26,590 nucleotides of DNA from a virus, in the IMG/VR virus record IMGVR_UViG_3300048672_001228, positions 1-26,590 of that record; one strand, given 5' to 3'. Below, in pieces: positions 45 to 12,025 of the stretch (within the stretch, counting starts at the first letter, position 1; each line of letters opens with the position of its first letter). Below the pieces are notes generated by a model that saw only the letters and a program-made list of their open reading frames with translations, did no database searches and was not told the origin of the DNA. A program made the translations under genes and the position numbers.

Positions 45-1076
45 TCATTTAGCTAGTGGATTCAGTTTGACAGCATCGTTTAGATGGCTTGGGCTTAAGT
101 GCGCATAGCGCATGGTCATTTTTATATCTGAATGCCCAAGCACCCGTTGTAACGTCAAGATATCCCCTCCATTGCTGATAAAGCAGCTGGCGAACGAATG
201 CCTTAATATGTGTGTGGCCTGCCCACGCGGTAGCACCAAGTCGGTTTTTGCTACCACACGGTTGAATGCCATCATGCCATCTTTAAAGATGCGGTCTTCT
301 GGATCCTTACACCGTGAAAAGTCTAGCAACTCGGCATAAAAATCAGCATCCAGCGGCACTGTGCGCACTTTTTTGGATTTAGTAAACTCAAACGTCACCC
401 TGCCATTGTGTAGCTGCTTACGCTTAAGCTGTTCAGCCTCGCCCCAACGTGCACCGGTTCTGATACATATCTGGGCAATCCACCACACCGATTTATTCCG
501 GCAAGCCTTCAGTGCATCAAACAGTGTTTCGATTTGCCCAGGCGAAAGATAGCTCAGCTGCTTTTCTTGGATTTTTACCAGCTCCACCTCGGCAATCGGG
601 CAATCATAAGCAATGATCTTAAGCTTTTTTAGCGTGCGGTACATGGCAGCCAGATACACATGCCGATTGTTAAAGGTCTTGGCCATCACCGGCTTGATAG
701 ACCTGAACATACACTCATATCGGTAATCAAGGAACTGTGACGGCAACAGAGTACGGGCATTTTTATGCCCTAGTCGGCTGAACATAGCCTCTAGTACACG
801 CCGCCTACGTGGCCCATCGGATAAGTTAACGCCATAGTAGCGCCACCAGATGTCCAGCAGCTCATAAAGAGACCGATTGTCCTGGTCAGCAACACTATTT
901 TTAACCGCTTGGTGCAGTTTTTCTGCCCCACCGCCACCATCACCCAGGTACTTAAACAGATGGTCTCGCTCAAACTGTTCAGCGGCACGCAAGGTGGGGA
1001 ATGTGCGCCTGATCCTTGGCACATCCTTGCGGTTAATTTGCAGCATGTAACCGGCTTTGGTTTTTGATATCGGCAT
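45..1076 (-). CDS. int: Tyrosine recombinase integrase, P2-like
   Basis: Site-specific recombinase expected to integrate and excise this phage. The 343-aa protein has a variable arm/core-binding N-terminal half and a C-terminal catalytic domain. The catalytic set is visible: R210 in the TGARWGE motif, H289 and R292 in the HILRHSF motif, H315 in the VLGHS motif and the nucleophile Y324 in MRYAH. Length and order (int, then a leftward repressor, then rightward early genes) match P2 and HP1. In P2 the attachment site lies just beyond the 3' end of int, which here would be at or left of base 45, so the phage boundary is probably at or outside the window edge. The 44 bases before it show nothing I can identify. 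Start is the ATG at 1076, after which the iteron block begins almost at once. Confidence 0.95.
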   Translation of the reverse strand: MPISKTKAGYMLQINRKDVPRIRRTFPTLRAAEQFERDHLFKYLGDGGGGAEKLHQAVKNSVADQDNRSLYELLDIWWRYYGVNLSDGPRRRRVLEAMFSRLGHKNARTLLPSQFLDYRYECMFRSIKPVMAKTFNNRHVYLAAMYRTLKKLKIIAYDCPIAEVELVKIQEKQLSYLSPGQIETLFDALKACRNKSVWWIAQICIRTGARWGEAEQLKRKQLHNGRVTFEFTKSKKVRTVPLDADFYAELLDFSRCKDPEDRIFKDGMMAFNRVVAKTDLVLPRGQATHILRHSFASCFISNGGDILTLQRVLGHSDIKMTMRYAHLSPSHLNDAVKLNPLAK

Positions 1077-3752: not shown

Positions 3753-6398
3753 ATGATAAAGTCCATAAATAGCAAAATAATAGCGCGGCTGGTTAATGAT
3801 TTTCAAATGCGCCAATCCGGTACCAATTTACGTATGGGTAAATGCCCGTCCTGTGAGCGCAAAACGCTGTGGACATGGGCAGAATCCCCTGGTGTTGTGC
3901 AATGTGACCGCGTTGGCAAGTGCGGCTATAGCTCAACCACCAAAGAGCTTTACCCTGATCTATATGCTAACGTCAGCAAAACTTACCCCGCTACTAAAGA
4001 AGAACCTAACAAAACCGCTGATGCTTATTTGGCTATCAATCGCGGCTTTAAGCTTGCGCCCATTAATGGCTGGTACGAGCAGGGCAAATACTGGAATCCC
4101 AATGGTGACAAAGGCACGGCAACCGTGCGCTTTTGGCTGGATGCCGAAAAAACGGTATTCTGGGAGCGTTTTATTGATGATGTGACCATCACTGAAGAAG
4201 ACGGCAGTAAAACCCTGCGAAAATCCAAGTTTAATGCAGGCTTTCAGGGTAAATGGTGGCAGCCGCCAAACCAAACCATCCATGAAAAAGACCATGTTTA
4301 TTTAGTGGAGGGCATTTTTGATGCCATGAGCCTGGTTGAAAACGGCTTAAAAGCTGTGGCTATCATGAGCAGTGGCACATTCCCAGCTGAATCCATTAAA
4401 GAACACCTGCATAAAAAAGTAAACTGGGTGATTGCACTGGACAATGATCTTGCTGGAATAAAATCGAGCAAGAAACATGCCATAGAGTTAAAAAAATTAG
4501 GCCAGTCGGTGAGCTATGCCTTACCATCGCAAGGCAGGGAAAAGATAGACTGGAACGATCTGCATATTGCCCACAAGATCAACCCCGCGTATATCGAAGA
4601 TTATCTATATTACGGCGCGGCCGAGTTTGCCAGCAGTACAAACGACAAGGCTATGGTAATCTGGAAGCGCAACAAGCTGCTGCATTATTTTGTGTTCTCT
4701 TTTAAAGAGCGCACTTACCGCTTTAAGATTGATGAGGAAGATTACAAAAAGTCTTATGCCAAGGCTTTTGATGATAGCCTTGATACTGGCTTGGCAGAAG
4801 CAGAAGCCTTTAGCCAAACCAAACAGATCACTGAAATCGCCAACTTCAGCATGGAATACCTGTACTCCCAACAACCAGCGAATGGCGATGATGGCTGGTA
4901 TTTCTTAAAGATCACCTATAGCAATGGCAAAAAACCGTATCAGTGCGCGGTATCCGGTGATGTATTCGCCGAATCCAAGAAATTTAAAAAGACTATGCAG
5001 ATTAAGGCGCATGGCGCATTGTTCACCGGCAGCAATGCCGATATGGATTATTTGTATAAACAGTGGTTTGCCACTCAACAAAAAAGCGTAAGAACCCTTG
5101 ATTTTGTCGGTTATGACGAAGACACCAAGTCGTATGTATTCCCAGAATTTGCCGTGCAATCCGGTAAGATTTTAAAGCTGAATGCAGAGTCATTTTTTAA
5201 CTTAAAAGACACGGGTATTAAAACCAACGTTGATATTAATCAGCGCTTGACCGCCAATAAGCCCGTTGATTTTATTGATGACTACATTAAGGCATTTGGC
5301 ATTGGTGGCTTGATTGGCATGGCATGGTGGGTGGGCAGTTTAATTAGCGTGCAAATCCGTGATAAACATTCCAGCTATCCCTATATGCAAGTTATTGGTG
5401 AACCCGCATCGGGAAAATCAGCGATGGTCAATTTTTTGTGGAAATTGATCGGAAAAACCAGCGACACCTTCAACCCAAATTCATCATCGCTTTCTGGCCG
5501 ATTTAGGAAGATGGCTGAAGTGTCAAACATGCCTGTAGTTTTTAACGAAGTCGATAATGAAAACGTGAATAATCCCCATGCAAAAAAATTCATGTGGGAT
5601 GAATACAAAGACCCGTTTGAAGGTTCTCTGGGCAGAATAACCGGTATTAAGAGCAACGACAACAGCACACGTAACCCGCCGTTCAGGGGCGGATTAATGG
5701 CCGTGCAGAATATAAAAACCCTAGCGTCATCGGCTATGTTGTCACGCTTTGTTTATTTGCCTTTTGACCGTTCACATCATTCTATGGACGGCAGAAGATC
5801 AGCTGACAAGCTGCGTGATTTGGAGATTACCGATGTGAGCGGTTTTTTACTACAAGTCTGCTCAAAATCCGATGTATTGTTTTCTGAATACAACAAATTA
5901 TTTCTGCATTATCAGCATAAGTTGGCAACGTATAAGAAAAATGGCTCAGAAATCCCCGCTTTAAATCATGACAGGGTTATTAAGTGTTACGCCCAAATGA
6001 TGGCATTAGCTGAGTGTTTAAAGCTTATCGTCCCGCTATCGGATCATCATATAAAACAAACGCAAGACAAATTGATTTCCGGTGCTATCGAATGGCAAGC
6101 ATCTCTCGATGAAGATCATCCCGTTGTTTTCGAGTTCTGGCAAACCTTTGAATACCTAAACTCAAAATTTGGTGAACAAGGCAATGCGCTTAATCACAGC
6201 AATAGCCCAGATTTGGAAATAGCCATTAGCTTGCAAGACTTTAATGCTCGATGCATTGAATCAAAGCAAGAAACCGTATCTACCAAAGACCTGCGTGAGC
6301 ACCTGCTGGGTAGTAAATCTAGAAAATACCTAAGAACAGCTGCTGTGTATTCACGGCTGGAAAAGCGTACTTTACGGTGCATGATTTTTAAAGCTTAG
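3753..6398 (+). CDS. Primase-helicase, P4-alpha-like (zinc finger, Toprim, P-loop)
   Basis: Replication protein of 881 aa, expected to prime and unwind phage DNA. The N-terminus has a CHC2-like zinc ribbon, C31-x2-C34 and C51-x5-C57. A Toprim domain follows: the VYLVEGIFDA strand with its Glu near residue 186 and the D-x-D pair at 230-232 (ALDNDLAG). The C-terminal half carries an SF3/DUF927-like ATPase with Walker A GEPASGKS at 549-556 and Walker B VVFNEVDN at about 595-602. The plan resembles phage P4 alpha or DUF927-type primases rather than the P2 gpA or HP1 Rep expected with these head and tail genes, which suggests a replication-module swap. The last gene of the early run with a clear function before the displaced spike gene. 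Confidence 0.9.
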   Translation: MIKSINSKIIARLVNDFQMRQSGTNLRMGKCPSCERKTLWTWAESPGVVQCDRVGKCGYSSTTKELYPDLYANVSKTYPATKEEPNKTADAYLAINRGFKLAPINGWYEQGKYWNPNGDKGTATVRFWLDAEKTVFWERFIDDVTITEEDGSKTLRKSKFNAGFQGKWWQPPNQTIHEKDHVYLVEGIFDAMSLVENGLKAVAIMSSGTFPAESIKEHLHKKVNWVIALDNDLAGIKSSKKHAIELKKLGQSVSYALPSQGREKIDWNDLHIAHKINPAYIEDYLYYGAAEFASSTNDKAMVIWKRNKLLHYFVFSFKERTYRFKIDEEDYKKSYAKAFDDSLDTGLAEAEAFSQTKQITEIANFSMEYLYSQQPANGDDGWYFLKITYSNGKKPYQCAVSGDVFAESKKFKKTMQIKAHGALFTGSNADMDYLYKQWFATQQKSVRTLDFVGYDEDTKSYVFPEFAVQSGKILKLNAESFFNLKDTGIKTNVDINQRLTANKPVDFIDDYIKAFGIGGLIGMAWWVGSLISVQIRDKHSSYPYMQVIGEPASGKSAMVNFLWKLIGKTSDTFNPNSSSLSGRFRKMAEVSNMPVVFNEVDNENVNNPHAKKFMWDEYKDPFEGSLGRITGIKSNDNSTRNPPFRGGLMAVQNIKTLASSAMLSRFVYLPFDRSHHSMDGRRSADKLRDLEITDVSGFLLQVCSKSDVLFSEYNKLFLHYQHKLATYKKNGSEIPALNHDRVIKCYAQMMALAECLKLIVPLSDHHIKQTQDKLISGAIEWQASLDEDHPVVFEFWQTFEYLNSKFGEQGNALNHSNSPDLEIAISLQDFNARCIESKQETVSTKDLREHLLGSKSRKYLRTAAVYSRLEKRTLRCMIFKA

Positions 6399-8316: not shown

Positions 8317-8344
8317 GTGCGTAACGTTCAGACCTTCATATTAT

Positions 8345-8420
8345 GTCGGGCTGGGCGGGGCAGCCGAAAGGCTGGCCGGTTCTGTTGTTCCGGTATGCTA
8401 ACCCCGTTCAGTCTGGCTCC
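8345..8420 (+). ncRNA. C4-type antisense RNA of phage immunity
   Basis: The sequence has the hallmarks of the C4 RNA of phages P1/P7 and the related P4 CI RNA: GGGCTGGGCGGGG, hairpin CAGCC-GAAA-GGCTG (8361-8374), a second hairpin closed by CCGG/CCGG, then AACCCCGTTCAGTCTGGCTCC-like 3' end, whose CCCCG pairs back with CGGGG to close a three-way junction. In P1 this RNA is processed from the ant transcript and blocks antirepressor translation. Here an antirepressor-like gene follows directly, which supports the call. Identified by eye; a covariance-model search would confirm it. Confidence 0.7.
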
Positions 8421-8471
8421 ATGATTAGCATCGTGTTGCCAGAATATCAATCAAGCAACAGGAAAATAATC

Positions 8472-9056
8472 ATGTCACAACCAAATACCAATATCCGTCC
8501 TTTTACATGGGGCGACATCGAATTTTCAGAAACCATCATGATTGATGGAATCCAACATGTTACTCGTCGAGCCATCGGTGAATTCTTGGAATATGCTGAA
8601 GCAACCAAACAAATCAGCAAAATTATTGAACGAAATTCACATATTTTAGAGTTTCAGTTGTCGTCAGTAGTGACGACAACTGACGGCAAAAATTACGATA
8701 CTTTCATCTATGATCCAGTTGGTTTTTTGCTGATCGTGATGCAATCAGATCAGCCCAAAGCAATCGATATGAAAATCGCCATTGCTAAATTTGTCCGTTA
8801 TTTTTCAAAAAAACCAGCTGTTACCGCCAAAGAGCAAAGAATTATCCGTGGCCGGATAACATCACTCGTTAAAAGCATTGTTGATGAAACCGACCAGGTG
8901 TCTGTAAAAGTCCATTGGGAGGAAATCCGTTACCTGTGTGATCAGATCGGCTGTTCCTATCCAGAAATTCACCTAATGCGCAAAGGCTGGACACAACTTA
9001 CGTTAGTGGGTGGTTATGATGTGTTGATGGATGGACGCAATGGCGGTGCGAAATGA
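8472..9056 (+). CDS. Antirepressor-like protein (BRO-N / P22 Ant N-terminal type)
   Basis: 194 aa. The N-terminal 110 residues fit a BRO-N/P22AR-type domain: an opening strand pair, the helix RRAIGEFLEYAEATKQISKI, and the segment YDPVGFLLIVMQSDQPKA. Expected to counter a repressor and promote induction. The ATG at 8472 follows AGGAAAA. The frame stays open upstream to an ATG at 8343 through the C4 RNA, and that extension reads like an Ash-family peptide (AGQPKGWPV), so a longer 237-aa product is possible. The C4 RNA upstream is the likely translational regulator. The stop overlaps the next ATG (ATGA). Confidence 0.75.
   Translation: MSQPNTNIRPFTWGDIEFSETIMIDGIQHVTRRAIGEFLEYAEATKQISKIIERNSHILEFQLSSVVTTTDGKNYDTFIYDPVGFLLIVMQSDQPKAIDMKIAIAKFVRYFSKKPAVTAKEQRIIRGRITSLVKSIVDETDQVSVKVHWEEIRYLCDQIGCSYPEIHLMRKGWTQLTLVGGYDVLMDGRNGGAK
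8656..8681. repeat. Perfect 11-bp hairpin inside the antirepressor gene
   Basis: Arms AGTTGTCGTCA and TGACGACAACT with a four-base loop, in the coding sequence for SSVVTTTD. Long perfect hairpins within a coding region are uncommon; it may be a regulatory structure or a protein-binding site. Confidence 0.8.
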
Positions 9057-9870: not shown

Positions 9871-9920
9871 AAATAACCGGACTGGCCAATTGGCCAGTCC
9901 CTTGAAATGACGGGTTAGGC
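9871..9920 (+). other. attC-like junction ahead of first cassette
   Basis: Ends in GTTAGGC (9914-9920), a perfect integron core site (GTTRRRY), preceded by TTGAAATGACGG, similar to the 3' half of the downstream sites. The 5' half is not a normal R''/L'' arm: AAATAACC pairs only partly, and a perfect 22-bp palindrome (9879-9900) lies between. It may be the phage-cassette junction at an insertion point, or a shortened attC. Confidence 0.45.
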
Positions 9921-9945: not shown

Positions 9946-10125
9946 ATGGCAACAGTGCCTGAAATTTTAGAAAAAATAAGCAATAAAGAGCTTGTAGCAA
10001 TACCGTCTGAGTATTTCACCATTTTTATCGAATACTGCAAAGAGATACAGTATGACCATACGCAATTAGTAATAAAAGAAAATGATGGAAAACACATAGT
10101 TGGGCTTTATGATGCGAGTGCATAA
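9946..10125 (+). CDS. Cassette-type ORF 1, hypothetical 59 aa
   Basis: Starts after a good ribosome site (TAGGAG). The product, beginning MATVPEILEKISNKE, is a small soluble protein with no family I recognise. Its stop codon lies inside a GCATAAC box (10120-10126), the arrangement of integron gene cassettes in which the ORF ends at the attC R'' box. Confidence 0.65.
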   Translation: MATVPEILEKISNKELVAIPSEYFTIFIEYCKEIQYDHTQLVIKENDGKHIVGLYDASA

Positions 10126-10274
10126 CATAAAGTCAATAATGCAAAGCGGCAAGTCTTGAAGCCTTTATGTAAAAAATGAGCATTTAACACAGAATTAACA
10201 AGCTAGACGCTTATTTGATGGCTATTTGATAGATAGTATGATGCGGCTAGCCCGTGTTGATTGAAATGTCGTGC
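10120..10274 (+). other. Degenerate attC-like site after ORF 1
   Basis: R''-like GCATAAC at 10120-10126 and R'-like GTCGTGC at 10268-10274, which departs from GTTRRRY at the third and fifth bases. Flanking arms pair in part (TCAAT with ATTGA next to an unpaired base). About 155 bp, at the long end for attC. The bases after it, TGCTAAA, match those after the site at 10604. Possibly a decayed site; it might also contain a lost cassette. Confidence 0.4.
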
Positions 10275-10317: not shown

Positions 10318-10521
10318 ATGTTTGGATTGACTAAGCGCGAACAAAGATGGAAAGCGGAACAAAAAGCCGCTGAAACACTTGCTGGCCTGGCTGTTGGAAT
10401 ATTACAGGCAGTAGCAAGCGTTAGGGTTGCAGAGGCAAACGCTAATGCAATTAGCAAGCTACAAGCCGAAAATGCAAGACTAAAAGCAAAAATAGACGCA
10501 AAAGATAACATAGGTGCATAA
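10318..10521 (+). CDS. Cassette-type ORF 2, hypothetical 67 aa with coiled coil
   Basis: Basic N-terminus (FGLTKREQRWKAEQKAAE), a short Ala/Val/Leu-rich stretch (residues 20-37, possibly membrane-associated) and a helical C-terminus (NAISKLQAENARLKAKIDAK) with heptad spacing of a coiled coil. No family recognised. Weak ribosome site (TTGGAA). The stop codon lies in the GCATAAC box of a canonical attC, so this ORF plus that site form a standard gene cassette. Confidence 0.7.
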   Translation: MFGLTKREQRWKAEQKAAETLAGLAVGILQAVASVRVAEANANAISKLQAENARLKAKIDAKDNIGA

Positions 10522-10604
10522 CGCTTTGTTAAGGCGCTGCCGCACTGGATTTTAAAAATACACATGACTGCTTAACGGCAGTCGCCTTGAACAAATTGTT
10601 AGGC
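10516..10604 (+). other. Canonical integron attC site
   Basis: R'' GCATAAC (10516-10522) and R' GTTAGGC (10598-10604). The outer 21 bases (10516-10536) pair with 10583-10604: the R boxes match except one base, then a 2-base unpaired spacer, then TTTGTT against AACAAA, then one extrahelical G (10589), then AAGGCG against CGCCTT. Inner arms CTGCCG/CGGCAG continue the stem. R boxes, unpaired central spacer, L boxes and the extrahelical base are exactly the features integron integrases recognise on folded attC. Confidence 0.85.
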
Positions 10605-10633
10605 TGCTAAACGTGGCCACGATTGGTGTTTCT

Positions 10634-10930
10634 ATGGCAGTAAAAAAGGTATACGTACATACAGGGGATTTGGTTATCATTCATGTTGTTGATGGTGATG
10701 AGTCACGCTCAAAAGATGGGTATGACCACAGCGCCAACACTAGGCGAGAGAAATATTTGTTTACGTTTAATACCGATTCTGTGACTTATTCTTGTCCACA
10801 GTATAATGTTGGCTACCAACAGACGACTGGTGGGCATGTGATGTGGAGTACAACTAAAATAAATATTGAAAAACAGGCTCTTATGGATGAAATTGCCGAA
10901 TTAAAAGCAGCTATCGCTGGTACTGCCTAA
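10634..10930 (+). CDS. Cassette-type ORF 3, hypothetical 98 aa
   Basis: The product opens MAVKKVYVHTGDLVIIHVVD, is beta-rich and ends in a helix (IEKQALMDEIAELKAAIAG) with heptad spacing. A GTG at 10613 would add seven residues and lies 8 bases after the attC core site; I prefer the ATG. No family recognised. The stop codon is inside GCCTAAC (10925-10931), a perfect R''-type box, so the ORF has a cassette end, but no complete attC follows. Confidence 0.65.
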   Translation: MAVKKVYVHTGDLVIIHVVDGDESRSKDGYDHSANTRREKYLFTFNTDSVTYSCPQYNVGYQQTTGGHVMWSTTKINIEKQALMDEIAELKAAIAGTA

Positions 10931-10961
10931 CGTACAGTAGGCACCGATAACGGTGCATAAC
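10924..10961. repeat. Truncated attC-like remnant with two hairpins
   Basis: GCCTAAC at 10925-10931 and GCATAAC at 10955-10961 are two R''-type boxes 30 bases apart. Between them are hairpins TGCCTA/TAGGCA and GCACCG-ATAA-CGGTGC. No GTTRRRY box follows on this strand, so the last cassette appears to have lost its recombination site. Confidence 0.45.
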
Positions 10962-11008: not shown

Positions 11009-12025
11009 TTAAAGCACCGTCCAAACTGGATCACTAAACCTGACCTTATCCCCCTTAATCACATCATTAATCTCTAAAAAGATTTGCTGCATAGGCTGTA
11101 CTTCCAGCTCATGGTAAACCCGCATGGTCTTCTCTGGATCTGCAAGCCCCCCTGCATTTTTGGGGATAATACCCATCAGCTCAGGCCGCATCCGGTGCAT
11201 AGCTAACAATTCCGCTTCTGTTGTGCCCTTAATTTTTTCATATTCGTCCTTGGTACCGATGTCCCCCACTGGAATAATCTGCACCGGCTCTTTATTGGTA
11301 GAGCGGGGGATATTTAAATACAGGCTTCTAAAATTGCCTGGGCCTTTCGATCCCTTCACTTTCTGTTCAATCATTTTTGCCGTTTCTTCATCTAGATTCG
11401 CATCCGTCGTTACCAATATATAGCCCATGTGAGCGCCATTAATATAATACTTGCGCCGGAATAACGTTGCATCCTCACTTAATAGTACTGCTTGTATGCC
11501 GCCCAAATATTGTGGAATTCCATAAATACCCTGTTTCAAATCCGGTTCCATTAAATGGATTACTTCATCTTTATCATATTCAATAAGGTTAGTATCAAAG
11601 CCAATATCCATCGTTTGTATTTTGATATAAACCCCAGGCTCTTTACCTCTGCGCATAGCGACAGACGGCAAGTGTGCAAGCCTTAATACCTTGCCAAAGC
11701 GGTCGGTAAACTTTTGGAAATAACAGTTACCGGTGACCACGAAATCTAATGCTGCCTTACGCAGCTCGCTTAACGTTAACAGCGGCGTGGGCACATACCA
11801 TTTGCAGATCATGTTTTTCTTAAAGTGCATGATGGTACCGTGGTAAGCGTTGGCTCCCATGAGTTTACTTAATCCATATAAGCTAACTGGCGGGTTGTAA
11901 TAAGCCCCACTCAAGCCTAAAAAACTGCCGGTGTAATCGTACAGGCTGTTACTAAGGATCGCTTCTGGATCTCCAAAACTAAACATCTGTACCGATGGCT
12001 CTTTTACTGCAATATCTATGGGCAT
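11009..12025 (-). CDS. Q: Portal protein, P2 gpQ family
   Basis: Forms the head portal vertex through which DNA is packaged and to which the tail attaches. 338 aa, close to the usual length of P2 gpQ. Recognised by LSGAYYNPPVSLYGLSKLMG near the N-terminus, TPLLTLSELRKAALDFVVTG in the middle, and MRPELMGIIPKNAGGLADPE near the C-terminus, which matches the PBSX/P2 portal pattern. It is the downstream partner of the large terminase gene, 8 bases after it on the minus strand, as in P2. Confidence 0.95.
   Translation of the reverse strand: MPIDIAVKEPSVQMFSFGDPEAILSNSLYDYTGSFLGLSGAYYNPPVSLYGLSKLMGANAYHGTIMHFKKNMICKWYVPTPLLTLSELRKAALDFVVTGNCYFQKFTDRFGKVLRLAHLPSVAMRRGKEPGVYIKIQTMDIGFDTNLIEYDKDEVIHLMEPDLKQGIYGIPQYLGGIQAVLLSEDATLFRRKYYINGAHMGYILVTTDANLDEETAKMIEQKVKGSKGPGNFRSLYLNIPRSTNKEPVQIIPVGDIGTKDEYEKIKGTTEAELLAMHRMRPELMGIIPKNAGGLADPEKTMRVYHELEVQPMQQIFLEINDVIKGDKVRFSDPVWTVL

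Follow-up and report, generated by a model that had tools for sequence, protein, structure and literature searches.

The window, by which we mean the whole stretch of 26,590 nucleotides that was analysed, is an entire IMG/VR virus record of a P2-like phage, in which integrase, repressor, replication protein, portal and terminase genes follow each other in P2-like order (Table 1). The assignment rests on this gene order, on the terminase and on a P2-type portal protein that is 40-46% identical to those of P2-type phages. Between the replication protein and the portal lies an accessory region, whose last three small open reading frames (ORF1 to ORF3) each stop within a GC[A/C]TAAC box, at 10120-10126, 10516-10522 and 10925-10931, respectively. 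None of ORF1-3 could be given a convincing function from Pfam, PHROGs, PADLOC or NCBIfam, and tblastn found no match for them in phages and none for ORF2 in plasmids. Relatives of ORF2 were found in IMG/VR contigs, and the scan of GTDB genomes returned stretches fitting the pattern of this family and no confirmed relative. The start of the family is nearly invariant (window and L046-L052), attC sites flank some copies and not others, and in one contig (L050) the N-terminus of the family forms part of a 206-aa protein matching phrog_4826. Upstream in the window, a C4 antisense RNA (RF01695, 71 bits; 8339-8423, plus strand) lies at the 5' end of an anti-repressor-like gene (8343-9056; phrog_245, anti-repressor Ant), an arrangement as in P1-type immunity control, here in a P2-like phage.

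Table 1. Features of the window discussed in the text (CM, covariance model for attC; G051, the best relative of the window found).
Feature	Position	Strand	Basis
Phage integrase (tyrosine recombinase), not an integron integrase	45..1076	-	PF24624/PF00589; TIGR02249 51.5 bits against the 265-bit IntI cut-off; synteny
Primase/helicase-type replication protein, left border of the hotspot	3753..6398	+	Toprim Pfam matches; 49% to G051
Probable degenerate attC ahead of ORF1: hairpin, R''-like GTTAGGC (9914-9920)	9871..9920	-	By eye
ORF1, 59 aa, no known family; stop in GCATAAC (10120-10126)	9946..10125	+	
Possible decayed attC between ORF1 and ORF2 (GCATAAC ... GTCGTGC)	10120..10274	-	By eye; below CM threshold
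ORF2, 67 aa, MFGLTKREQRWKAEQ family of small phage proteins; stop in GCATAAC	10318..10521	+	
Intact attC	10516..10604	-	CM R1, 42 bits, E=4e-9; scanner 19.1; fold z -4.4
R' box GTTATGC; predicted crossover GCATAA^C directly after the ORF2 stop	10516..10522	-	Sequence and polarity
Predicted "attC-first" cassette: attC, leader and ORF3, ending at the TAA^C stop	10522..10930	+	Inferred
R'' box GCCTAAC	10598..10604	-	Sequence
ORF3, up to 105 aa, no known family; stop in GCCTAAC	10613..10930	+	
Terminal attC remnant 3' of ORF3 (GCCTAAC ... GTGCATAAC)	10925..10961	-	Sequence; weak CM matches
P2-type portal protein, right border of the hotspot	11009..12025	-	59% to G051

The region contains one intact attC, and the neighbouring sites are degenerate. 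In the hairpin ahead of ORF1, the other arm is shortened (AAATAAC) and the covariance model did not score it as a full attC, while an element like the terminal remnant of the window follows the ORF2 homologue in L048, a 38.8-kb contig with five reversed attCs and no relative of the window portal. With a single intact site the window is not a CALIN (at least two attC sites without intI), and it is not a complete integron with intI and attI either, its tyrosine recombinase being the phage integrase. The best relative of the window that we found, G051 (L398/L399), is syntenic with it (integrase 51%, primase 49%, portal 59% and terminase 50% identical), and between its primase and portal it holds about a dozen small genes, almost without match to the window, and about eight attC matches, all reversed; G051, as many other phages, is thus a CALIN. 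With attC cargo in both phages, this region serves as a cassette hotspot in no fewer than two phages of the lineage. It occupies the same genome position as the known P2-like accessory hotspot between the replication and portal genes, but its cargo in the window and G051 consists of attC-delimited units, whereas attC was absent from the 43 other portal-related loci tested.

The attC site at 10516-10604

A covariance model trained on 20 chromosomal-integron attCs matched the window from 10604 to 10516, on the minus strand only, with a runner-up of 9.5 bits. In the attC scanner, the site reached a structural score of 19.1 against a top score of 14.1 among 40 shuffled windows, and its fold z-scores were -3.5 on the minus and -4.4 on the plus strand. 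Read 5' to 3' on the minus strand, the left part is GCCTAAC(R'')-AATTT-GTT[C]AAGGCG[A]CTGCC and, after the inner stretch, the right part is GGCAGCGCCTTAAC-AAAGC-GTTATGC(R'). The arms pair as TTTGTT/AACAAA, AAGGCG/CGCCTT and CTGCC/GGCAG, with unpaired spacers of 2 nt.

The preliminary description had read the letters correctly, namely GCATAAC at 10516-10522, which includes the ORF2 stop TAA (10519-10521), and GTTAGGC at 10598-10604, and the pairing of the arms and the 2-nt unpaired spacer that it reported are borne out. It had, however, counted a single extrahelical G, whereas the right arm carries a G and a T that are both extrahelical, and it had exchanged the names of the boxes, its R'' being R' and its R' being R'', so that its orientation is reversed. 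In the aadA1 site of R100, the canonical reference, the scanner places the extra C and A on the L'' (R''-side) arm, whereas the window attC, when read on the plus strand, has its extrahelical bases on the opposite arm. This is why the site matches on the minus strand: the covariance match that had been predicted in plus orientation was found at the predicted place but not in that orientation. The window attC therefore opposes all three ORFs, its neighbours ORF2 and ORF3 included, with R' touching the ORF2 stop, and differs from the canonical arrangement in which the gene is codirectional and the attC stands at its 3' end.

On the minus strand the site has R'' and R' boxes with AAC/GTT cores, L arms, unpaired spacers and extrahelical bases on L'', and it is a genuine integron-type attC in a phage. 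Its recombinogenic (bottom) strand is predicted to be the plus, gene-sense strand. The hairpin is intergenic and lies 3' of a stop codon, as a chance hairpin or a transcription terminator might, and Rfam found no attC in the window, matching the C4 RNA alone. We give such a reading almost no probability, as against it stand the fold and model statistics, the conserved pattern of extrahelical bases, the recurring boxes and the exact mobility breakpoints described below.

Polarity of attC sites and genes in phages and bacteria

For the viral survey, IMG/VR was scanned for the canonical attC left arm and sites were then called by the covariance model; for comparison, GTDB genomes were scanned with the same left-arm pattern and the best 150 matches were used. 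Gene strands were taken from our own codon-usage gene caller. A crude test of gene strand by ORF length was dropped in its favour, being too noisy in GC-rich contigs.

In viral contigs, the attC was opposed to both neighbouring genes at 168 sites, codirectional at 8, mixed at 7 and without neighbours at 3, which makes 168/176 unambiguous sites opposed, or 72 opposed against 6 codirectional when counted by locus. Among the best 150 bacterial matches the relation was inverse, with 13 opposed and 95 codirectional sites (2:26 by locus), and the difference between viral sites and these 150 matches is significant by Fisher's test (p around 1e-50 counting sites and 7e-17 counting loci). An independent second pattern for viral contigs, built on the right arm with a variable R'', gave 8/8 opposed sites. 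Strands were confirmed independently of the caller by PHROG matches to RNA ligase, DNA methyltransferase and phrog_12600 in L061, PAPS reductase in L121 and the portal in L101. In L069, which has two divergent gene clusters, the attCs in each cluster are opposed to the genes of that cluster. One of the two opposed bacterial loci listed (L180, Pseudothauera rhizosphaerae) is itself a prophage, in which genes for a portal and a head protease neighbour the site. Its reversed attC adjoins the portal gene and is nearly the same as in the IMG/VR locus L101.

Reversal of attC relative to the genes is thus general among the sites found in the surveyed phages. As two strict DNA patterns chose the viral loci, other attC types are under-sampled and the Vibrio type was missed. 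Phage TJE1 has a single site scored at the cut-off, and it is codirectional; this site (L272, 1016-1075) is of another sequence type (GTATAAC...GTTATGC) and may be an exception or have a different origin. In P12002L, MW202573 and the scanned part of PH101 we found no convincing attC, low-scoring chance-like matches alone. According to PMC9892861, the cassettes of TJE1 and PH101 run in one direction as in bacterial arrays, and the attC directions of P12002L are divergent. No report of the reversed polarity was found in the literature searched, a coverage that excludes most subscription papers and bioRxiv.

These data bear on the origin of the cassettes. The preliminary description was right that a true attC lies in a P2-like phage without an integron integrase of its own; carriage of attC by phages lacking the integrase had already been published (PMC9892861). 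Its inference that integron cassettes had entered the phage is not upheld, given that ORF2 relatives were found in viral contigs and none in the GTDB genome scan or in plasmids, and that attC and gene have, in phages, a polarity opposite to the one seen in integrons. Capture of ordinary cassettes from the chromosomal integron of a host would agree with the chromosomal-integron type of the window attC and with attC-bearing phages being known (PMC9892861). We nevertheless consider it very improbable: the canonical polarity of integrons already disfavours it, ORF2 relatives were found only in viral contigs, and the cassettes common to several phages carry reversed attCs.

Boundaries of the units and an empty/filled pair

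At 79/160 opposed sites, the stop of the upstream gene falls exactly at RYYYAA^C / GCCTAA^C, and the following gene begins a median of 29 nt past R''. Agreement between the boxes on either side of a gene is commoner than agreement between the R'' and R' of a single attC (78 vs 27 pairs, p=6e-7), as would be the case if attC and gene had moved together as a closed circle. The window carries the same signature, its R'' and the ORF3 stop box (10925-10931) both being GCCTAAC, so that R'' is closer to that box than to its own R' (GTTATGC). Box matching is a sign of mobility and not of polarity, which is shown by the breakpoints. In segments common to otherwise unrelated phages, 11/49 ends lie at most 8 nt from the predicted crossover in the stop-codon box, against 2.2 expected under a simple null (p=5e-4).

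Two shared cassettes were resolved at base level. The phrog_1273 cassette occurs in L146, L152 and L096, in three different surroundings, and identity extends from the AAC of the attC to the GCCTAAC after the gene. In L152 it interrupts the 3' end of a gene whose product, judged by eye, resembles a helix-turn-helix protein. We predicted the uninterrupted protein (GKLN/NPIDRK) and used it as a query, which retrieved five contigs with an empty site (L401-L405) and one that is filled (L406) and identical to L152 over 3949 nt. L152 and L406 hold a 396-bp reversed cassette at CTGAA^C, where L401-L405 have an empty AA/C site; between the empty L403 and the filled L152, 1788/1788 bases of the left flank are identical, and the right flank is 98.4% identical over 187 nt. 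The empty site of L401-L405 has no attC, and the insertion is therefore one at a bare G^TT. The filled-site phage (L152) resembles the Burkholderia phages BcepIL02, DC1 and BcepMigl, a group that we take to be Bcep22-like.

Cassettes can enter secondary G^TT sites, an event called attG-type insertion. PMC12901181 mentions attG sites among integrase substrates. The L152/L406 event resembles attG-type insertion, as in both a single cassette enters a bare G^TT without duplication, but it took place in a phage and the cassette is reversed.

For the window itself no empty-site relative was found, and BLAST of the region and of its attC against phage records returned no relative; a common phage-type attC gave integron-like copies in P1 and one other record, and otherwise short chance matches. 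Crossover at its R' box (10522 to 10516) would follow by analogy with the other phages, and its own cassettes may still be mobile.

The sites might instead be former attCs that now provide only homology or a hairpin signal, the genes being shuffled by homologous recombination at the conserved boxes through RecT-type single-strand annealing proteins of the phage. Genes for RecT-like or other single-strand annealing proteins are present in L107, L145 and L077, all contigs that carry arrays. However, the breakpoints fall at the AAC core without flanking homology, one insertion went into a target without a nearby attC, and exchange driven by homology should break anywhere in the attC. We regard this reading as unlikely.

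Recombinase source and a cassette form adapted to phages

IntI scored above the curated cut-off in 2/50 viral records, many of which are fragments, making absence weak evidence. One of these records (G037) comes from an isolate, and its L132 is an ordinary integron with codirectional layout; the other (G050) holds L153, where the scored site is opposed. In 23/33 viral records, again including many fragments, the search for tyrosine recombinases was negative. A host IntI acting in trans is probably the simplest source of the recombinase, because these phages almost never carry an integrase. The same scarcity of IntI in phage records could point to a different phage recombinase that evolved to use attC with reversed gene polarity. 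This is rather improbable in our judgement, considering the 23/33 records lacking a tyrosine recombinase, the fit of the sites to a model built from IntI substrates and, in Qi et al. 2023 (PMC9892861), the recombination by IntI1 of 5/6 phage attCs tested.

The window site quite probably belongs to a phage-adapted form of the cassette, made of "attC-first" units that are moved by integron-type chemistry, probably with host IntI in trans. In gene sense, such a unit would consist of a reversed attC, a leader with the ribosome-binding site, the gene and its stop codon, with a crossover exactly 3' of the stop (RYYYAA^C, or G^TTRRRY on the other strand). It would be excised as a circle through R' x R' recombination. 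Its targets would be other phage attCs or bare G^TT sites, among them TAA^C stops, and insertion would duplicate no target sequence and leave the gene codirectional with the phage operon, the integrase probably being supplied in trans by a host integron. As to the cause of the polarity, harmless G^TT targets in compact phage genomes may be the antisense of TAA^C stops; by landing there the attC would enter in antisense, so that only gene-reversed cassettes would be expressed. With the reversal, the coding strand would also be the recombinogenic one; where genes run in the direction of replication, that strand would be the lagging-strand template, on which attC folds better (PMC8946536). At the level of sequence, this proposal is supported by the identity of the attC, the reversed polarity, the signatures of circular units, the exact exchange boundaries and the empty/filled pair in another phage.

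Cassettes of chromosomal integrons (Xanthomonadales/Burkholderiales type) are alike in attC sequence and structure, G^TT crossover and the R-box matching of circular units. In those integrons, however, gene and attC are codirectional and linked to intI/attI and Pc, whereas the phage attC runs against the gene and intI was not found. The attC sites and CALINs described in phages by Qi et al. 2023 likewise comprise attCs and cassettes, mostly without an integron integrase, but the available part of that paper (PMC9892861) mentions no general reversal, no exchange between phages and no empty/filled site. On balance, we lean towards a phage cassette pool that would run parallel to integrons with opposite polarity, use host integrases to exchange accessory genes among unrelated phages and have TAA^C stop codons as natural landing sites, and that could be a birthplace of cassettes. 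To the origin of cassettes and the precise reshuffling of small accessory genes in phages, such a reversed-polarity pool, together with the empty/filled pair, would offer a concrete, testable route. Moreover, attC searches that assume integron polarity would misread phage arrays, in that the gene after an attC is taken as the next cassette and not as the same one.

Separately, phrog_12600, a family of unknown function, recurs in attC units of several phages that share no other relationship (L061 11240-11893, L116 2215-2976 and L121 5771-6631).
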